A DNA stretch of 64,000 nt from Alphaproteobacteria bacterium (GTDB taxonomy: Bacteria; Pseudomonadota; Alphaproteobacteria; Sphingomonadales; Sphingomonadaceae): NCBI GenBank assembly GCA_030431875.1, contig JAUIIG010000005.1:1-64000 (forward strand), read 5' to 3'. A program made the position numbers and the translations under genes. Positions 8,021 to 64,000 of the stretch are shown piece after piece; the stretch's first letter is position 1, and each line of letters begins with the position of its first letter. The notes beneath the pieces were generated by a model, which was given only the letters and a program-made list of their open reading frames with translations, made no database searches and had not been told where the DNA came from.

Positions 8021-9082
8021 ATGGTTAACAGGCAAGACACTGTTTCGCTTGAGGATGAACTCAAGGCGAAAGCGCGCGAGCTGGGCTTCGTGGCCGTGGG
8101 CATTGCGCCAGCCAGCGATAACCCAGTGCAGGTCGCGCGCCTGCACGAGTGGCTGGGCGAGGGCTTCCATGGCTCGATGGGCTGGATGGAGGACCGCGCC
8201 GAAGTGCGGCAGGGCCCCCAATCAATGTGGCCGGCAGCCAGGAGCGTGATCGCACTGGGCATGAGTTATGCGCCCGATGTCGACCCGCTGGCGCCCGAAG
8301 AAGCGGGACGTGAGGCGAAGATCTCCGTCTATGCGCAAGGGCGCGATTACCATGACGTACTGAAGAAGGCGGCCAAGGCGCTGGCGCGCTGGCTGGTGGA
8401 GAAACGGCCGGGAACCGAGCTCAAGGTTTTCGTCGATACGGCACCCGTGATGGAGAAGCCGCTGGGCGAGGCTGCGGGGCTGGGCTGGCAGGGTAAGCAC
8501 ACCAACGTGGTCAGCCGCGAGCACGGTAACTGGCTGTTTCTCGGGGCAATCTACACCACGCTTGAGCTTTCACCCGACGCGCCGCACGCGGACCGCTGCG
8601 GTTCCTGCCGTGCCTGCCAGGTCGCCTGTCCGACGGATGCCTTTCCTGAACCGTATCGGTTAGATGCGAGAAAATGCATATCCTATCTGACGATAGAACA
8701 TCACGGTCCGATCCCGCTCGAGTTCCGCGAGGCCATCGGCAACCGCATCTACGGCTGCGATGACTGCCTCGCCGCCTGCCCATGGAACAAGTTCGCCGAG
8801 GTTGCCGCCCGCCACGCGAAGCTCGCCCCTCGCGAAGACCTCATCGCGCCTGACCTCGCAGGCCTGCTGGCGCTGGACGACGCGGCGTTTCGCGCGAAAT
8901 TCTCCGGTTCGCCGATCAAGCGTGTCGGGCGCAACCGCTTCGTGCGCAATTGCCTGATCGCGGCAGGGAACAGCGGCAACCGCGCCCTGTTGGTGCAGGT
9001 CGACCCACTGCAGGACGATCCCGATCCGGTTGTTGCTGAAGCGGCCCAATGGGCTGCAGCGCAACTTACCTCATCTCTTTGA
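8021..9082 (+). CDS. queG: epoxyqueuosine reductase QueG
   Basis: This 353-residue cobalamin- and iron-sulfur-dependent enzyme makes the last step to queuosine in tRNA (epoxyqueuosine to queuosine). Two 4Fe-4S motifs are clear: [13 protein letters not shown] (about 192-204) and [10 protein letters not shown] (about 247-256). The DUF1730-like N-terminal region with [11 protein letters not shown] is present, and the C-terminus fits the usual HEAT-like tail. Its 3' end overlaps the convergent flavoprotein gene by 17 bp. Confidence 0.95.
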
Positions 9083-52248: not shown

Positions 52249-53298
52249 TCAGGGACGCTCTGCCGTTACGGTCAGGAACTCGCAATCGGTGAGGTCAGGT
52301 GCAGTCGGTGCACCGGCATCCACCTCGGGGTGCTGGCGCGCTGCGGCTGCGGATTGGGCGTCCATCCCCGTCGTGATTGTCCAGCGATCGTGGAAGGTGA
52401 TCGCGGCAAATCCCGCTTCTTCCAGCGCGGCGCGCAAGGCCTTGCGGCTGGGCACGGTGAAGTGCCGGGGCGCCTCGAAGCCGCGCCAGAAGCGGCCGAA
52501 ACGCGCGATCCCGCCCGCTCGTGCATTGGGCATCTCGAGGTAGAGCCTGCCACCCGGCACCAGCCAGTCGTGGAACTGCCCCAGCAGGCCGCGCGGACCG
52601 GGCACGTGTTCCAGCACGTGATTGGCGGTGATCATATCGAAGCCCTCGGAAAATGGCTCCCGTGGCATCTGTTCGGGGGTGCTTACGTCGAGCCCGCGCG
52701 TCGCTGCAAATGCCACGGCGCCCTCGTCAAAATCCACGCCGGTAACGCGATGCCCCAGGGCCTTTGCACGCAGCAGGAAATCGCCGTTGCCGCAGCCGTA
52801 GTCGAGCACGCGTGAGGGCGCGCCGGGCAGGAAGCGATGGTGTGCCACGACACCGAGGCGGCGTTCTGGCATCCGTTCGACGATGGCGGCGCAGAGGCGG
52901 TCTTGCACGCTATTTGATCCGCCGAAACGGTGCCGCACGAAGCCGCGCGACAAGGCTTGCCAGGTTCGGCGCGCAAGGCCTGGTCGGGCGGCTTCGGGTT
53001 CGCTCTCGTGAGTGTAATAGCCTGCATAGGCCAGCCCCAGCCGCTCGTTAACGGGCCGCCGGTCCAGCACCAAGGTGTCACAACCGCGGCAGCGGCGATA
53101 GGCAAAGGCGCCTGGCACAGATCGGAAGAACCAGTCGCGCACCTCGTCAACAAATGGGGCAAGGTCCTGCGAGCCACAGAACAGGCAGGCCTTCTGCTCT
53201 TCAAACCAGCCGGACGGCCAGTCCTCGGCCAAACCTTGTTCCGCGCGCTCCGCATCCCGCGAAGGCGGGGTCGGCGGAACGCCCGGTGTCGGCGTCAT
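52249..53298 (-). CDS. class I SAM-dependent methyltransferase
   Basis: This 349-residue protein has an N-terminal zinc-ribbon-like part (KACLFCGS ... RRCRGCDTLVL) and a methyltransferase domain with SAM motif I (VLDYGCGNGDFLLRAKALG, about 164-182) and NHVLEHVPG. Such CxxC proteins are common in cell-surface sugar pathways. It would methylate a sugar or lipid head group. The start overlaps the rfbB stop (ATGA). Confidence 0.87.
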   Translation of the reverse strand: MTPTPGVPPTPPSRDAERAEQGLAEDWPSGWFEEQKACLFCGSQDLAPFVDEVRDWFFRSVPGAFAYRRCRGCDTLVLDRRPVNERLGLAYAGYYTHESEPEAARPGLARRTWQALSRGFVRHRFGGSNSVQDRLCAAIVERMPERRLGVVAHHRFLPGAPSRVLDYGCGNGDFLLRAKALGHRVTGVDFDEGAVAFAATRGLDVSTPEQMPREPFSEGFDMITANHVLEHVPGPRGLLGQFHDWLVPGGRLYLEMPNARAGGIARFGRFWRGFEAPRHFTVPSRKALRAALEEAGFAAITFHDRWTITTGMDAQSAAAARQHPEVDAGAPTAPDLTDCEFLTVTAERP

Positions 53299-54371
53299 GC
53301 GTGAGCGCCTTGCAGGCTCCGCCACCAGTCCTCGTTTTCGAGATACCATCGCAGGGTCTGCGCCATGCCGTCCTCGAACGAGTGGTAGGGAGCATAGCCC
53401 AGCTCGGAGCGCGCCTTGGTCTCATCGATCGCATAGCGCCGATCGTGGCCAGCGCGGTCTGTGACGAAGGTCTTGAGGCTTTCGGTCGGCTGGCCCTTGG
53501 CGGCGGGCGCTTGCGGGTAGCGCTCGGCTAGCCCGTCGATCTCTGCCATCGCCTTGTCCACCGAGGCGCAGATATGGTCGATCACGGCCATGTTGGGCAG
53601 CTCTGCCCCGCCGCCGATGTTGTAACACTCACCCGGCTGACCCTTGTCGAGGCAGGCCTCGATGCCGCGGCAATGGTCTTCTACGTGCAGCCAGTCGCGC
53701 ACGTTCATGCCGTCGCCGTATATCGGCAGCGCGCGGCCGTGCAGGGCGTTGAGCAGGAACAGCGGGATCAGCTTTTCCGGGTACTGGTAAGGCCCGTAAT
53801 TGTTCGAGCAGTTGCTGGTGGTTACCTCCAGCCCGAAGGTGTGGTGATAGGCGCGCACCAGGTGGTCCGAACTCGCCTTGCTGGCCGAATAGGGCGAATT
53901 CGGCTGGTACTGGTTGTCTTCGGCAAAGGCCGGGTCTTCCGGGCCGAGCGAGCCGTAGACCTCGTCAGTCGAGATGTGATGGAAGCGGTGCGGCTTGCCG
54001 CTGCCTTCGTCCAGCCAGACCGTGCGGGCGGCTTTCAGCAGGCTGTTGGTGCCGAGGATGTTGGTTTCGATAAAGGCATCCGGCCCGCTGATCGAGCGGT
54101 CAACGTGGCTTTCTGCCGCAAAGTGGACCAGCGTGGCGATGTCGCGTTCGCGCAGCAGCTTTTCCACCAGTGCCGTGTCGCGGATATCGCCGACTACCAG
54201 TTCGGCCTGTTCGACCCCGGCAATGGTGCTCTCGTTGCCCGCATAGGTCAGGCAGTCGAGCACGATCACGGTGTCGTCGGGGTGCTGCTCCGCCCAGTAA
54301 TGGACGAAGTTGCCGCCGATAAAGCCGGCACCGCCGGTGACGAGCAGGTTAGCCAAGGGCCTTTTCCTCAC
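53295..54371 (-). CDS. rfbB: dTDP-glucose 4,6-dehydratase
   Basis: This 358-residue extended SDR forms dTDP-4-keto-6-deoxyglucose, step two to dTDP-rhamnose. It has the NAD motif VTGGAGFIG (11-19), the STDEVYGSLG catalytic segment and the YSASKASSDHLVRAYHHTF motif with catalytic Tyr and Lys. The first residues (MRKRP) may be extra; a TTG near 54356 starting LANLLVTGG would overlap the rfbD stop more typically. It is last in rfbA-C-D-B. Confidence 0.95.
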   Translation of the reverse strand: MRKRPLANLLVTGGAGFIGGNFVHYWAEQHPDDTVIVLDCLTYAGNESTIAGVEQAELVVGDIRDTALVEKLLRERDIATLVHFAAESHVDRSISGPDAFIETNILGTNSLLKAARTVWLDEGSGKPHRFHHISTDEVYGSLGPEDPAFAEDNQYQPNSPYSASKASSDHLVRAYHHTFGLEVTTSNCSNNYGPYQYPEKLIPLFLLNALHGRALPIYGDGMNVRDWLHVEDHCRGIEACLDKGQPGECYNIGGGAELPNMAVIDHICASVDKAMAEIDGLAERYPQAPAAKGQPTESLKTFVTDRAGHDRRYAIDETKARSELGYAPYHSFEDGMAQTLRWYLENEDWWRSLQGAHA

Positions 54372-55197
54372 GTAACATGTGCCAAAGGTTCAGCCGCCAA
54401 TGGGTGTATCCGTCGCCCAGCAGTTCGCGCGTCTTGCTGCTGTCGAGCAGCGAGAAAGCGGGGCGTTTGGCAGGTGTCGGATAGTCGGCGGTGGTGATCG
54501 GGTTGATCGGGATCATTTCGGTCAGCAAGCCCATGGCGCGGGCCTCTTCCTGGATGGCGACGGCGAAATCGTACCAGCTGGCGACGCCGGCATCGCTATG
54601 ATGGAAGGTGCCGCTGGCATCCTTGTCGACCAAGCCCCACACGGTCTTGGCGAGGCCCGTTGCCCAGGTCGGTGCACCGATCTGGTCGACCACGACATTG
54701 AGCGCGGGTTTTTCCCGCATCAGCCGCAACATGGTGCGCACGAAGTTCGCGCCGCCTGCGGCATAGACCCAGGCCGTGCGGACCAGCAGGTCCGTTGGGC
54801 GCAAGTGATCCTCGCCCGCCGCCTTGGTCCGGCCATAGGCCGATAGCGGTGCGCGCTCGTCGTCCGGTCGGTATGCGCGGCTGGACTGGCCGTCGAAGAC
54901 GAAATCGGTGGAGACATGGACCAGCTTGCCCGGATGGGCAGCGACCAGCGCGGCCACGGCATCGGCATTGATCGCCCGCGCAGTTTCTTCGTCGGCTTCC
55001 GCCTTGTCGACTGCCGTATAGGCCGCCGCATTGATGACGAGGTCGGGCGCGCTGTCACGGATCAGCGCTGTAATGGCGTCTGCGTCAGCCAGGTCGCAGG
55101 CAGCACGATCGACCGCGTGGACTTCGGCACCGGCAGGGGCCGTGACCACCAGCGCACCGCCCAGCTGCCCGCTGGCTCCGGTAACCAGCACCTTCAT
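54349..55197 (-). CDS. rfbD: dTDP-4-dehydrorhamnose reductase
   Basis: This 282-residue SDR makes dTDP-L-rhamnose from the 4-keto sugar. It starts MKVLVTGASGQLGGAL with the NAD(P) motif and has the TDFVFDG segment and the YGRTKAAGE catalytic motif. It overlaps the rfbC stop by 4 bp and rfbB by about 23 bp. Confidence 0.95.
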   Translation of the reverse strand: MKVLVTGASGQLGGALVVTAPAGAEVHAVDRAACDLADADAITALIRDSAPDLVINAAAYTAVDKAEADEETARAINADAVAALVAAHPGKLVHVSTDFVFDGQSSRAYRPDDERAPLSAYGRTKAAGEDHLRPTDLLVRTAWVYAAGGANFVRTMLRLMREKPALNVVVDQIGAPTWATGLAKTVWGLVDKDASGTFHHSDAGVASWYDFAVAIQEEARAMGLLTEMIPINPITTADYPTPAKRPAFSLLDSSKTRELLGDGYTHWRLNLWHMLREEKALG

Positions 55198-55739
55198 ACG
55201 AAGGCTTCCACTTCGGCGAGTGCCTTGCCTTCGCGGTCCTTGGCCGAGAGTTGCACGTCCAGCCCGTCCAGCGGCCAAGCGATGCCCACGTCGGGATCGT
55301 CCCAGGCGAGGCAATGTTCATTTTGCGGCGCATAGGGTGCGTCGCACTTGTAAAGGAAATCGGTGTCATCCTCGAGCGTGAGGAAGCCGTGGGCAAAGCC
55401 ATGCGGCACCCAGAACATGCGCTTGTTCTCTACCGAGAGTTCTACGCCCACCCACTTGCCGAATGTGGGTGACGAGCGGCGCAGGTCCACCGCCACGTCG
55501 AATACCGCGCCCGACAACACGCGCACCAGTTTGCCTTGCGGACCGGGGTTCTGGAAATGCATGCCGCGCAACACGCCCTTCTGCGAGCGCGAATGGTTGT
55601 CCTGCACGAAATCGAGGTCGAGACCGGCTTCGGCGAATTTCGCCGCGCTCCAGCTTTCCATGAAGAACCCGCGTTCGTCGCCGAAGACCTGCGGCTCGAT
55701 GATGAGCGGCCCGTCGATCTCGCAAGCGGTTACCTGCAT
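55194..55739 (-). CDS. rfbC: dTDP-4-dehydrorhamnose 3,5-epimerase
   Basis: This 181-residue cupin epimerase has GFFMESW, the DNHSRSQKGVLRGMHFQ motif with the catalytic His, and the VPHGFAHGFLTL metal/active-site strand. It overlaps rfbA (TGATG) and rfbD (ATGA). Confidence 0.96.
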   Translation of the reverse strand: MQVTACEIDGPLIIEPQVFGDERGFFMESWSAAKFAEAGLDLDFVQDNHSRSQKGVLRGMHFQNPGPQGKLVRVLSGAVFDVAVDLRRSSPTFGKWVGVELSVENKRMFWVPHGFAHGFLTLEDDTDFLYKCDAPYAPQNEHCLAWDDPDVGIAWPLDGLDVQLSAKDREGKALAEVEAFV

Positions 55740-56620
55740 CAGCGCGCGCCCTCGCGCAGCAGCGCCATCAGGTAGTCGCCATAGCCCGACTTCACCAGCG
55801 GCGCGGCAATGGCTTCCAGTGCCGCATCGTCGATCCAGCCCTGCCGCCAGGCGATTTCCTCGGGGCAGCAGATCTTCAGGCCCTGCCGTTCCTCGGTAAT
55901 GCGCACGTAAGTGGCCGCATCGAGCAGCGAGGCGTGGGTGCCGGTGTCGAGCCAGGCATAGCCGCGGCCCATGATCTCCACCGACAGCGAACCGTCGTCG
56001 AGGTAGAGGCGGTTGAGGTCGGTAATCTCCAGCTCGCCGCGCGGCGAAGGCCTCAGGCCTCGCGCCCGGTCCACCACGGTGCCGTCGTAGAAATAGAGCC
56101 CGGTCACGGCATAATTGGACTTCGGCCGGACGGGCTTTTCTTCGATCGACACCGCCGTGCCCGACTGGTCGAACTCGACCACGCCATAGGCCTCGGGATT
56201 GTTGACCCGATAGGCGAAAACGCTTGCCCCGCTCTCGCGCCCGGCGGCGCTGGACAGCAGTTCGGGCAGGCCGTGGCCGTAGAAGATGTTGTCGCCCAGC
56301 ACGAGCGCGCTCGGGTCATTCCCGACGAAGTCGGCACCGATATGGAAGGCCTGCGCCAGCCCTTCCGGCTGCGGCTGCACGGCATAGGAGATGGCCACGC
56401 CGAAGTCCGAACCGTCACCCAGCACGCGCTGGAACTGGGCCTGGTCTTCGGGCGTGGTGATGATCAGAACGTCGCGAATGCCAGCCAGCATCAGCGTGCT
56501 GAGCGGGTAGTAGATCATCGGCTTGTCGAAGACCGGCATCAGCTGCTTCGAGACGCCGCGCGTCAACGGATAAAGCCGGGTACCGGAGCCGCCGGCCAGG
56601 ATGATGCCCTTGCGCGCCAT
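55739..56620 (-). CDS. rfbA: glucose-1-phosphate thymidylyltransferase
   Basis: This 293-residue enzyme makes dTDP-glucose, the first step to dTDP-rhamnose. It has [22 protein letters not shown] (5-26), [16 protein letters not shown] and the EKP motif. ATG at 56620 gives the usual N-terminus; ATG at 56644 is possible. It heads the rfbA-C-D-B operon, whose stops and starts all overlap. Rhamnose is a normal part of sphingan EPS. Confidence 0.95.
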
Positions 56621-56807
56621 TGTGATCGTTTTCGTCCTTGCCATCCCCAGCCAAACGCGGTGTTGCCTCGCAGTATGGCTCGGCGGCGTCAAATACTTAT
56701 TGCCGCGCTTCCCCAGCCGTAAATGCAGGGGGCGTGGACGCAGCAAAGCACCCCATAAACCTTAGCTTGGCGTTGCCTTGGCGCGATTGCTTGCTCTAAC
56801 CGCTCAG

Positions 56808-59680: not shown

Positions 59681-60829
59681 ATGGCGGCTCCACAGGCAAT
59701 CGACGAGGCCCTGACGGCCCTGTTGCGCGGCGATACCGCCCGCGTGCAGCGCCTTGTGGCTGGCCATGCAGGCTCGGGCGAGGAGATCGCGCAGCGCGCG
59801 GACTATCACGGCATCAGCCACCTGTTGTTCACGCTGGCCGAAGGGCAGGCGAGCTGGCCCAGGCCCCTTGCCGACAATCTCCGGGACACCGCCATGGCGA
59901 GGGAGTTCTGGGAAGCCTCCCACATGCGCGCGGTGCAGCCTGCGCTGGACGCACTGGTGCAGGCAGGTATCACCCCGGTGGTGATGAAGGGAACGGCGCT
60001 GGCATATTCGCTCTATGCCAGCCCGGCATCGCGGACGCGGGGCGATACGGACCTGCTGGTCACTCCGGCCGACCTGTCGCGCGCCCGACAGGTGCTGCAG
60101 GATGCAGGCTTCACGCGCGGCGCGGACGCCCACGGCACGCTGTTCCAGGAAAGCTGGCTTACGCCGTCGGGACGGGACCTCGTCCACGTGATCGACCTGC
60201 ATTGGCAGGCCAACGATTCGCCTGTCCTCCAGCAAGCCTTACCGCTGGAAGGGGGACTGACGCGCACCCGGCCTTTGTCCAGGCTGGGGGACGGTGTGCA
60301 CGCGCTATCGTACGGCGACAGCCTGTTGCAGCAGGCTTTCAACGCCAAGTGGCACAGCGACTTCGGCTTCTTCCTCGGCCACGAGCGCGTAACCGGGATG
60401 CGGCGACTGATCTGGGCCTATGACATGCATTTGCTGCTCCAAGCGATGGATGCGGAAGAGCTGGAATCAATCGTGCAGCGCGCGGCAAAGGTTGGCGCAG
60501 CGCCTGCCCTGCTGGAAGCCATCGAGCATGCGCAGGCGGTGCTCGGCACTCCGGTCGACGAGCATTTGCTCACGCGTTTGCGCGAGGCGCCTGCCGATAC
60601 CCCGATCATGCGTTACCTGCGCACCGATGACATGATCGCTCGCCGGAAAGCCGATCTGCGCGCTACCCGCGGATTGCGGGCCCAGGCACGGTTCGTCGCT
60701 GGAATGCTGCTTCCACCGCCGCACCATCTGCGCAAGCGGTTTCCCCGTGCCCAAGGCTGGCCTTTGCCCTTGCTTTACCTGCGCTATGCCGGGGCCAGCG
60801 CCATGCGGGTACTATCCGCCCGCGGGTAG
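59681..60829 (+). CDS. nucleotidyltransferase family protein, lasso-cluster type
   Basis: This 382-residue protein resembles the NTP_transf_5-type nucleotidyltransferases: VVMKGTALAYSLYASPASRTRGDTDLLV (about 98-125) with the GxxxD-type DTD metal pair, then LHWQAND. Such proteins are found in some lasso-peptide clusters beside an HPr-kinase-like protein, where they modify the product. It converges with the PqqD gene, their stops being one base apart. Direct function is inferred from the neighbours. Confidence 0.78.
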   Translation: MAAPQAIDEALTALLRGDTARVQRLVAGHAGSGEEIAQRADYHGISHLLFTLAEGQASWPRPLADNLRDTAMAREFWEASHMRAVQPALDALVQAGITPVVMKGTALAYSLYASPASRTRGDTDLLVTPADLSRARQVLQDAGFTRGADAHGTLFQESWLTPSGRDLVHVIDLHWQANDSPVLQQALPLEGGLTRTRPLSRLGDGVHALSYGDSLLQQAFNAKWHSDFGFFLGHERVTGMRRLIWAYDMHLLLQAMDAEELESIVQRAAKVGAAPALLEAIEHAQAVLGTPVDEHLLTRLREAPADTPIMRYLRTDDMIARRKADLRATRGLRAQARFVAGMLLPPPHHLRKRFPRAQGWPLPLLYLRYAGASAMRVLSARG

Positions 60830-60830
60830 C

Positions 60831-61112
60831 CTAGTCGGCTGCTACTCTCGCGAGGCCGTTGGCCTGAAGATCTGCTGCCAGTGCGGCCACGTCGGCTTCG
60901 AGTGTGGCCCGCTCCACAGCGAATTCCTGCTCCAGCGCGTCGCAAAGCTCGGCCAGCGACTGCGGGCCGTCTTCGAGCAGCTCCCAGACTCTGCCGCCAA
61001 CCGCGTTGAGACCGAAATATGCCCCGGCTTCAAGGTCGAGCAGGACGGTTTCGCCGCCCACTTCGCGCGCCACGATATCATCGGCGCGCTCGATGCGTTG
61101 GTCCGGTGTCAT
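60831..61112 (-). CDS. PqqD-like RRE protein (lasso B1 type)
   Basis: This 93-residue winged-helix protein has the PqqD pattern: an N-terminal strand (RADDIVAREVGGETVLLDLEAGAYFGLN) and helices (VWELLEDGPQSLAELCDALEQEF). PqqD-like RiPP recognition elements bind leader peptides and deliver them to modifying enzymes; the YxxP leader of the precursor here is the expected target. AGGA precedes ATG 61112. It starts four bases after the HPr-kinase-like gene. Confidence 0.87.
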   Translation of the reverse strand: MTPDQRIERADDIVAREVGGETVLLDLEAGAYFGLNAVGGRVWELLEDGPQSLAELCDALEQEFAVERATLEADVAALAADLQANGLARVAAD

Positions 61113-61116
61113 CACT

Positions 61117-61965
61117 TCAGGTCCTGTAACTTGCGGCATGGTCCACCACGGCGCTTGCCACGTCCGGTAGTGCGGCGTAGTCGCGCGGGTAGTCCAGGGC
61201 AACAAATGGCACCTTCTCTGCCAGGTCGGACAGGCGTTCGAAATGGGCCTTCACCCGAGCCTTGTCTTCGATATCCAGCACAAAGGCATGCTGCATGATC
61301 TCTGCCAGCGCCTGTCGCGGCTGCATCGGGGAAAGCAGCGGACCCGTCGCTTCGCCGGGACCGAGCACGAAGATCGCGCCCAGCCGGGATGGCTCGGCGG
61401 CAAAGGGCAGGGCATCGTTGGCAGCCAGCGCTACCTTGCGAGTGGCAGCGGCGTCGCCTTGCCGGCTGCGGCGCAGGTAATCGGCGGTGTCACCGAACAC
61501 GCGCAGGACCGGTCGCTGCGGGACGACCTCGTAGCTGTCACCGCTGCGTTTTAGTTCGATCAGGTCTTCGGTCAGGAACGGGTTGCCTTCTTTCGCACAG
61601 GCTCCTGCCAACGTAGTCTTTCCCCGGCGCGAAAGGCCGACAAAGGCAACAGCGCCGTGCGGAGTGGCGCAGGCGCTGCCGTGCAAGGCAAGGCCGCCAG
61701 AGTGATTGATCAGCAGCGGCCGGATCGAATTGTGGAACAGGGTGTCGATCGCTGCCGGGTCAGCCTCCGGCGCCGGATGGCAAGCAACCTGATCGCAACC
61801 AGGCCGGATTGTGAAGTCTGCCGTGTCGGGAAAGCGTAGGAGAATGGTGTCACCACGCCGGTGGAAATGGGCAATCGGCATTCCGGCGGGGCTCGTCCAA
61901 CTGTCGAAGGGCGGATCGGCCAGCTCGTCCTGGTGGCAGGCAGGGTGCTTGACGAGACGTGCCAT
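61117..61965 (-). CDS. HPr kinase-like protein
   Basis: This 282-residue protein has a Walker A in FVGLSRRGKTTLAG (about 119-132), the HprK-type P-loop, and an ALHGSA segment before it. In some lasso-peptide clusters such kinases phosphorylate the precursor's C-terminal residue. The start is unclear because it lies 75 bp after the precursor with a terminator between. It is translated close to the PqqD gene. Confidence 0.85.
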   Translation of the reverse strand: MARLVKHPACHQDELADPPFDSWTSPAGMPIAHFHRRGDTILLRFPDTADFTIRPGCDQVACHPAPEADPAAIDTLFHNSIRPLLINHSGGLALHGSACATPHGAVAFVGLSRRGKTTLAGACAKEGNPFLTEDLIELKRSGDSYEVVPQRPVLRVFGDTADYLRRSRQGDAAATRKVALAANDALPFAAEPSRLGAIFVLGPGEATGPLLSPMQPRQALAEIMQHAFVLDIEDKARVKAHFERLSDLAEKVPFVALDYPRDYAALPDVASAVVDHAASYRT

Positions 61966-62039: not shown

Positions 62040-62414
62040 TCAGTGGAGCTTGATGCCGAGCTTGGCGTAATCGACCTGGCGATAGCCGTCGGGACCGATC
62101 GAAACGGCTTCGGGCACCACACGTTCGACTTCCTGCGCCATGACGCCGAACTGGCGGCCGTGTTTGCCAGCCGACTGGAATTCCGGCTTGTAGTCGAACA
62201 GGTAGAGGTCGAAACCGGCGGGATGTTCGCCGACGCGGGCGATGTTTTCCTTGCAGCGTAGGTCGGACTGGTTGTTCTTGCCGGTGGGGAAGGGGGAATC
62301 TTCGCCAACATCCAGGCTGCCGCCGGTCAGCGCCCGCACGGAACCGAACCGGGTCAGTTGCGGAGCGGCATATTCCTTGCGACATGCATCGCCAGATTTC
62401 TTCATCTTACCCAT
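62040..62414 (-). CDS. lasso-type precursor fused to S74 self-cleaving domain
   Basis: This 124-residue protein starts with a lasso leader: YAAPQLTRFGSVRALTG at 15-31 fits YxxPxLxxxGxxxxxTx exactly, with Thr30 at -2. Next comes GSLDVGEDSPFPTGKNNQ (32-49), with Gly at +1 and Glu7/Asp8 as possible ring acceptors. Residues 50-124 match the peptidase S74 chaperone of phage tail spikes (SDLRCKENIARVG, GVMAQEVERVVPEAV, DGYRQVDYAKLGI). The S74 Ser-Lys dyad (SDxRxK) is kept as Ser50 and Lys55. The start is ATG 62414 or 62405; the gene overlaps the cyclase stop. Product and cleavage are inferred. Confidence 0.85.
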   Translation of the reverse strand: MGKMKKSGDACRKEYAAPQLTRFGSVRALTGGSLDVGEDSPFPTGKNNQSDLRCKENIARVGEHPAGFDLYLFDYKPEFQSAGKHGRQFGVMAQEVERVVPEAVSIGPDGYRQVDYAKLGIKLH

Positions 62415-64000
62415 CCATCATTTTCGCCGGTTTCATGCGGCGATTCAAGTCAAGACCCGATAGTGCGCCCCATACAACCCAGTTGTGCACTGCGTCAATC
62501 TGCGGGTCGCGGCACTTGCCTGCAAGCAAAGCAATTTCTTCCTTAACGCACAGTTGCCGGCAAGCTTCCGAAAGCGGCCGGGAAAGGCGCTCTTCGGCCA
62601 TGTCCAGATACTGCTCAAAGGCCAGCGAGAAGCCGGCCTTGTCGGTTCGTTCGAGTACCACCTGTGGTAGCTTGCCTGTCATTGCCCGTCGGTGAACCAA
62701 CCGTGTGCTCCTGCCTTGCCGCCGGATCCTTTCGGGGGTGCGGCCAAAGAACTCAATGAAGGCCCGCGACATCATCGGGCTGCGTGCTTCCAGCCCGTTG
62801 CGCGCGTTCTGTTCGGCGAGCGTGTCGAGCAGGTGCCCGATGAGCGGGTGCGAGACCTTGATCTGCTTGTATCGGTCGACATAGCGCGCCTGCGGCTGGC
62901 TGGCGGCGATCCTGTCGCGCAGCAGGCGCTGCAGCTCGGGGCTCAGCCAGTCATATTGCGCCACCCGCTCCGCGATTGCCTTGTTCGACCAGCCAAGCCG
63001 GTCGCGGGCGCGCAGCAGCGAACCGGGGACCACGTTCGCAAGTGCGCCGCGCAGCAGCATGGCGAGCGCGGTACGCGGCCCGAATTCGCGCCAATCGGCC
63101 TTGAGGAATCCTGGGATGCGGCCTAGCTCCCCGGCGGCAAATGCCTCGTGATAATAGAGGCTATTGCCATCCAGGAATTGGTCGCCACCCTGTCCGTTCA
63201 TGATCGCCCGGCACCCCTTTGCCGCCATTGTCCGGCCCATCTCTTGCAGCATGAAGGCATTGGGGTAAGGCGCGAGGTTTCCGGAATTCGCCGCCTGTTC
63301 AAGGACCTCTGCAATATCGGGAAGGTAGAGCGGACATTCTGTCAGCTCGCGGTCGAGGTAGCTGGCGACCGCCCGCGCATAGCGCAGTTCGTCGGCGGCA
63401 CTTTGCGCCGGAGGTGCCAGGGTCACTCCGGCGATGTCCGGGGCAGGCAAGCGGCCGGCGCGCTGCAGCTCGTCCGCCACGGCGAAGACGGCCGAGGAAT
63501 CGAGCCCGCCGCTGCATTCCACGGCAAGCAGGGCGTCGGTCCGCGCGGCCCGGCGGACGCTCTCGGTTAGCACCGCGCGGTAATGCTCGACGTACTCGCC
63601 ATCGTCGCGATAGCGGATCTGCGGTTCGTCGGGGACGGACCAGTAGCGTCTTTCCGACAGCCCCTCCGGACCGATAGTGACCAGGTGCGCCGGCTTGACC
63701 CGCTCGATGCCAGACCAGACGGTTTCGCCGGGCGTCACGAATTCGAAGGTCATGACTTCGGCCAGGAAGCCGGGATTGGGCGCAGGGTGGCGGTCCAGTC
63801 CGGCGAGCACACCGCCGATGTGCGAGGCGGCGACCAGGCGCCTGCCGTCGAAGCTGTAGAACAGCGGGCGCAGGCCCATATGGTCCCGGGCCAGGTGCAG
63901 GCGGCCCGCCTGCCGATCAGCCACGGCCAGGGCGAACTCGCCGTCGAACAGGTCGAGGCATTGCTCTCCCGTGAGCGCCCATGCCTGCAGCACAAGCTCG
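62407..64000 (-). CDS. asparagine synthetase-like lasso cyclase (partial, N-terminus off window)
   Basis: About 530 residues of an asparagine-synthetase-like protein are visible; roughly 110 N-terminal residues lie past the right edge. The glutaminase half has LFDGEFALAVADRQ and the synthetase half keeps the ATP loop ECSGGLDSSAVF, the later GQGGDQFLDG loop and EARSPMMSRAFIEFFG. In lasso clusters this enzyme (C protein) activates the side-chain acid with ATP and closes the ring to Gly1. It overlaps the precursor start by 8 bp, so the two are co-translated. Confidence 0.9.
   Translation of the reverse strand, partial: ELVLQAWALTGEQCLDLFDGEFALAVADRQAGRLHLARDHMGLRPLFYSFDGRRLVAASHIGGVLAGLDRHPAPNPGFLAEVMTFEFVTPGETVWSGIERVKPAHLVTIGPEGLSERRYWSVPDEPQIRYRDDGEYVEHYRAVLTESVRRAARTDALLAVECSGGLDSSAVFAVADELQRAGRLPAPDIAGVTLAPPAQSAADELRYARAVASYLDRELTECPLYLPDIAEVLEQAANSGNLAPYPNAFMLQEMGRTMAAKGCRAIMNGQGGDQFLDGNSLYYHEAFAAGELGRIPGFLKADWREFGPRTALAMLLRGALANVVPGSLLRARDRLGWSNKAIAERVAQYDWLSPELQRLLRDRIAASQPQARYVDRYKQIKVSHPLIGHLLDTLAEQNARNGLEARSPMMSRAFIEFFGRTPERIRRQGRSTRLVHRRAMTGKLPQVVLERTDKAGFSLAFEQYLDMAEERLSRPLSEACRQLCVKEEIALLAGKCRDPQIDAVHNWVVWGALSGLDLNRRMKPAKMMDG

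Follow-up and report, generated by a model that had tools for sequence, protein, structure and literature searches.

The stretch of DNA analysed here as a whole, 64,000 nucleotides long and referred to as the window, carries a gene that is very probably a lasso peptide precursor and that, read from its sequence, has three parts: a leader, an 18-residue candidate core, and a C-terminal Peptidase_S74 domain. This is a real and recurrent type of lasso precursor, represented by 28 distinct leader-S74 proteins that profile searches and a species-level scan detected across the alpha-, beta-, and gammaproteobacteria. The best reading of the S74 part, to which we give a probability of about 0.6, is that it would cut itself off in front of serine 50 as the release step.

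The precursor gene and its cluster

The original prediction had placed the gene at the correct coordinates; translation of the plus strand over the same interval is interrupted by a stop, and the coding strand is the minus strand (Table 1). The lasso leader that had been proposed for residues 15-31 was recovered by the NCBIfam model NF033521 (lasso_leader_L3), which matches residues 15-32 with 21.2 bits against a cut-off of 19. The S74 domain proposed for residues 50-124 was likewise recognised by its own family profile, PF13884 (Peptidase_S74), which matches residues 50-104 with 40.1 bits against a gathering score of 22. The Ser50-Lys55 dyad, also part of that proposal, is intact with a spacing of five residues, serine being encoded by TCC (62265-62267) and lysine by AAG (62250-62252).

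The first 8 nucleotides of the precursor gene are shared with the end of the cyclase gene, the kinase and B1 genes lie downstream of the precursor, and the nucleotidyltransferase gene opposes them. The B2 gene begins 375 bases beyond the end of the window on the same contig. B1, B2, and the cyclase all have Pfam matches above the cut-offs, in accordance with the lasso gene cluster first proposed for this region, but the matches of the cyclase to NF033535 (lasso cyclase, E 2e-50) and of B1 to NF033536 (E 6e-15) are under the cut-offs of those models.

Table 1 Features of the S74-containing lasso precursor and of the genes around it
Feature	Coordinates	Strand	Basis
Precursor gene (A)	62040..62414	-	124 aa plus stop, ATG start
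Lasso leader motif, residues 15-31, Thr30 at -2	62322..62372	-	NF033521 match
Predicted 18-residue core, residues 32-49	62268..62321	-	compared with 27 further fused precursors and 24 without S74
Peptidase_S74 domain, residues 50-124, Ser50-Lys55 pair, without C-terminal coiled coil	62043..62267	-	PF13884, AF2 model
Lasso cyclase (C), Asn_synthase, AsnB-type	62407..64000, runs off window	-	PF00733 127.3 bits
HprK-like P-loop kinase gene (K)	61117..61965	-	weak: NCBIfam HprK_rel_B 15.3 bits, below cut-off
B1, PqqD-type recognition protein	60831..61163	-	PF05402 74.8 bits vs 23.4
Nucleotidyltransferase NTP_transf_5 (N)	59681..60829	+	PF14907 105 bits vs 31.2
B2 leader peptidase, Transglut_core3	contig C41 64375-64926, past window end		PF13471 74.7 bits vs 26

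Distribution of leader-S74 precursors

Profile searches among 396 genomes of the order found seven with a leader-S74 protein, the genome of the window included, all of them from the window's family; searches at the level of the class (385 genomes) and of the phylum (398) yielded no further ones, only G000, G103, and G041 being recovered again. A scan of one genome per species, covering 84,980 species, gave 33 loci, 23 of which (L087-L109) have a lasso leader ahead of the S74 domain, one of these (L093) being split by a stop codon, while two more (L110 and L112) are cut by contig ends and the remaining eight are other S74 proteins. One duplicate and L093 are omitted from the set of 28 distinct fused precursors. 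The hosts include Novosphingobium, Aurantiacibacter, Erythrobacter, Mesorhizobium, Ramlibacter, Polaromonas, Thiobacillaceae, Competibacter, and Contendobacter. In an alignment of 23 rows (A3, the window's protein and 22 relatives), PF13884 matches every row at E<=0.01, and at the same threshold lasso_leader_L3 matches 10 rows and lasso_cyano 15, with some of these matches below the NCBIfam cut-offs.

No earlier report of a lasso system with an S74 follower was found, as had been supposed at the outset: a lasso-S74 fusion is named in none of the entries listed by searches of open-licence PMC papers, and a lasso review (PMC13352647) makes no mention of S74.

Gene neighbourhoods were compared between 26 fused loci (L093 and L110 included; three orphans, L108, and a duplicate omitted; some flanks cut by contig ends) and 12 S74-less loci. 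Homologues of the kinase were found in 25 fused and 12 S74-less loci, of the nucleotidyltransferase in 23 and 12, of B1 in 22 and 12, of a methyltransferase in 19 and 9, and of B2 in 18 and 12. A cyclase homologue, whose presence beside proteins combining a lasso leader with PF13884 the original prediction had proposed to count, occurs in 24 of the 26 fused loci and in all 12 S74-less ones. The idea that fused clusters are devoid of an ABC transporter was abandoned, homologues being present in 16 of the 26 fused loci and in 10 of the 12 S74-less ones (counted as BLAST components, in which paralogues are possible). An all-against-all comparison of open reading frames, many of whose entries are antisense frames, revealed no gene recognisable as an S74-specific partner among the matches listed.

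In three genomes (G103, G478, and G431) the sole Transglut_core3 (B2) match is remote from the cluster, which would mean that the leader is removed in trans there. No cyclase or B1 match was found within about 9 kb of the fused genes of G041, G453, and L107; the G041 genome harbours a complete S74-less cluster elsewhere.

A tblastn search gave matches in 22 plasmid records and in 37 from phages, each spanning less than 80% of the protein, and an origin of the whole gene from a phage or plasmid was rejected. The best 20 of the 22 plasmid matches and the best 20 of the 37 phage matches all include part of the S74 stretch.

Leader, core, and ring residue

Threonine at leader position -2 is a known recognition residue (PMC10368454), and it is present in 28 of 28 fused precursors, the search pattern having allowed only T, S, I, or V at this position. 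It places the start of the core at Gly32, where it had originally been set. Core position 1 is more variable, with glycine in 18 of the fused precursors, alanine and asparagine in three each, and serine and threonine in two each. Position 8 is acidic in 26 (Asp in 23, Glu in 3) and the other two have Asp at position 9, whereas position 7 is acidic in only two, the window's precursor and L091; Asp39, at core position 8, is therefore the likely ring residue, and the ring most likely comprises the eight residues from Gly32 to Asp39. The original prediction had left the choice between Glu7 and Asp8: the acidic ring position survives as Asp8, and ring closure through Glu7 was discarded. Its expectation that homologues would share Gly1 and a ring acid was borne out in full for the acid, which all 28 carry at position 8 or 9, and gave a mixed outcome for Gly1. 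The lasso part of the window's precursor, with an Asp8 ring, is well supported.

The end of the core and the S74-less relatives

The evidence for where the core would end comes from relatives that lack the S74 domain. The distance from core residue 1 to the S74 serine has a median of 17 residues in the 28 fused precursors (range 14-30), and the distance from core residue 1 to the stop codon in 24 S74-less precursors with the same leader type, a set that counts L093 and a second leader ORF in L096, also has a median of 17 (range 14-24; Mann-Whitney p=0.67). In pairs picked by eye, some fused and S74-less tails are nearly identical as far as the boundary, and, counted from the ring aspartate, the tails of fused L097 and S74-less G370, and those of fused L091 and S74-less G494, end within one residue of each other. 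In L093, a single draft genome from a metagenome, a TAG stop (8231-8233) stands exactly at the S74 serine codon, the S74 frame beyond it is open to its end, and the core is whole.

In a tree of cyclases from 20 fused and 12 S74-less clusters, the S74-less sequences lie among the fused ones and the fused label needs four to five changes, although this is a quick tree in which the well-supported branches alone force only two. Since S74-less relatives sit among fused ones, the core seems to work without the S74 domain. The simplest account would be repeated loss of the S74 domain with core length kept, for S74-less clusters sampled from the window's family only and a tree that is unrooted. Taken together, the relatives support the proposed cut site before Ser50.

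Properties of the S74 domain

The catalytic serine is kept in 27 of the 28 fused proteins, with cysteine in one, and the lysine in all 28, while the arginine of the SDxRxK motif is kept in only 13. In 21 non-lasso S74 controls, serine and lysine are present in every case and the arginine in 17; conservation of the pair is thus not special to lasso use, and its value as proof of cleavage is weakened. In the alignment with MyRF, the cutting-hole residues Y615 and Y617 fall on Phe73 and Tyr75, neither of which varies among the 28. The S74 part is under purifying selection, with dN/dS between 0.04 and 0.15 in 10 of 12 pairs and saturated dS in the other two.

The best sequence match of the S74 part is the intramolecular chaperone autocleavage (ICA) domain of MyRF (E 2.9e-5). 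An AF2 model has high confidence over the S74 part (block-mean pLDDT 84-96, residues 51-120) and not over the core. With Foldseek, the top three hits are MyRF ICA structures (probability 0.84-0.99, E 0.03-0.05, TM 0.30-0.38), none of them at E<=0.001.

All 28 fused S74 domains end 8-14 residues past the last V-x-[YH] motif and are therefore without the C-terminal coiled coil of the MyRF type. Cleavage of MyRF requires trimers, which are held together mainly by that coiled coil (PMC8326128; see also PMC3742443 on the trimer requirement), and we count the absence of the helix against self-cleavage. Other short S74 proteins of the alphaproteobacterial class are also without the helix and keep the Ser-Lys pair. 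Should a helix-less S74 domain cut, the coiled coil would be dispensable in some cases.

Proposed maturation and alternative fates of the S74 domain

The sequence itself shows the three parts, the cluster, the conserved pair, and the matching core length; threading, cleavage, and the order of the steps are our inference. By analogy with the lasso family, B1 would bind the leader, B2 would cut after Gly31, and the cyclase would close the ring around the tail by linking Gly32 to the Asp39 side chain. Before or after ring closure, the S74 domain would use Ser50 and Lys55 to break the bond before Ser50, so that the products would be a lasso peptide ending in Gln49 and an S74 fragment of 75 residues; the S74 domain would in effect be a follower that removes itself. 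Some engineered lasso peptides tolerate C-terminal fusions (PMC13352647, PMC8498205), which speaks for such a course, and a longer lasso tail often lowers the yield (PMC13352647), which speaks against it.

It is unlikely, though not negligibly so, that the S74 domain is a follower that does not cut, serving as a folding aid or as a docking handle for the cyclase while another protease trims the tail. The missing helix would fit such a role, as would His64, which is invariant in all 28 fused S74 domains and could serve docking. Among the matches listed, however, no additional protease gene was recognised as going with fused clusters, those gene families that can be named occur in S74-less clusters as well, and trimming exactly at the start of the S74 domain in many lineages is a less simple explanation than self-cleavage.

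Slightly less probable is a natural lasso-protein conjugate, in which the S74 domain is never removed and a small folded domain carries the lasso ring and loop at its N-terminus. Such an arrangement is compatible with the formation of astexin-1 and pandonodin lassos that carry GFP or a zipper on the tail (PMC13352647, PMC8498205), with the absence of the helix required for MyRF cleavage, and with the purifying selection on the S74 part. It is at odds with the conserved serine and lysine, with core lengths equal to those of S74-less relatives, with the position of these relatives among fused ones in the cyclase tree, and with the stop in L093 that leaves the core whole.

An extension of the self-cleavage reading, which we regard as speculative and improbable in this specific form, takes up the observation that in MyRF the strand due for cutting threads through a beta 'donut' of the neighbouring subunit (PMC8326128). 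The S74 domain might then be an intein-like module whose donut would hold the tail stretched during ring closure and whose serine (cysteine in one relative) would cut by way of an acyl-ester (or thioester) after lasso formation and not before, so that release would depend on knotting.

That the precursor is processed to a non-threaded macrolactam or is otherwise modified, and so does not give a lasso product, is very improbable. Threading is unreadable from sequence and, judged by eye, many tails have few bulky residues, but the clusters hold the B1, B2, and cyclase set, and the acid stands at core position 8, or in two cases at 9. A chance fusion, a stray S74 fragment joined through an error of assembly or annotation, is rejected on the recurrence of 28 distinct copies across genera; the S74 parts of these 28, moreover, share one side of a branch with moderate support (91/93 against 21 controls, where the bootstrap had not settled, and 90 against 41 controls), dN/dS is low wherever measurable, and nothing was found in favour of such an artefact.

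If self-cleavage before Ser50 is true, this would be, as far as the literature searched shows, the first lasso family with a C-terminus set by a self-cutting folded domain, and it would show lassos forming in nature with a protein on the tail. It would also give a new job to a domain familiar from a human transcription factor as well as from phage fibres, and possibly a traceless tag for lasso peptide production.

Comparison with known systems

In RiPP precursors, a follower peptide is the stretch on the C-terminal side of the core. Unlike followers in general, the one described here is a folded domain from a family with known autoproteolytic members.

The closest gene clusters are those of paeninodin, pseudomycoidin, and the proteobacterial kinase clusters, which combine B1, B2, and C with an HprK-like kinase or a nucleotidyltransferase (PMC8498205) and share the Thr -2 leader motif, the PqqD-type B1, the Transglut_core3 B2, and the AsnB-like cyclase, whereas the present type has a 75-residue S74 domain after the core. 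The described lasso kinases act on a C-terminal serine (PMC8498205). A serine ends none of the 28 fused cores and one of the 24 S74-less cores, and the window's core would end in glutamine.

The S74/ICA domains of phage endosialidases and MyRF (PDB 7dc3; PMC8326128, PMC3742443) share PF13884 and the Ser-Lys pair five residues apart, but in the present type the C-terminal coiled coil is absent and the place of the upstream beta-helical stalk is taken by a RiPP leader and core. Engineered GFP or zipper fusions of astexin-1 and pandonodin (PMC13352647, PMC8498205) resemble it in having a folded domain on the lasso tail during maturation, whereas the present type is natural, occurs in many genera, and has a presumed self-cleavage site at the junction.

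Further observations on S74 proteins and neighbouring genes

The fused protein with cysteine in place of the S74 serine is from Polaromonas (L105, 8926-9360) and is a possible thioester variant. A histidine forms the C-terminus of 16 of the 28 fused S74 domains, residue 124 in the window's precursor. The short S74 proteins of L135-L155, from alphaproteobacterial genomes, also have no coiled coil, and several are rich in glycine just before the serine.

Three orphan fused precursors (L011 8755-9171, L068 8785-9192, and L107 8956-9378) have long Gly/Met-rich cores of 23-30 residues and lie in a syntenic sugar-use locus with a GH42 beta-galactosidase, sodium/solute symporters, and a TauD dioxygenase; none of the three has a cyclase match close by.

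A PRMT-like methyltransferase (L010 9331-10458 and relatives) follows the precursor in many clusters; it has no match in L009, the stretch from the genome of the window. Homologues of RmlA (dTDP-sugar, rmlA-type) were found in 5 of the 26 fused loci and in 8 of the 12 S74-less ones, and dTDP-sugar genes are neighbours in L010, L012, L013, L067, L069-L071, L077, L079-L081, L085, and L097. The window itself holds rml and exopolysaccharide-type genes at 53295-56746, near the nucleotidyltransferase gene, and as a guess the cluster nucleotidyltransferase may use a sugar made by neighbouring rml genes.
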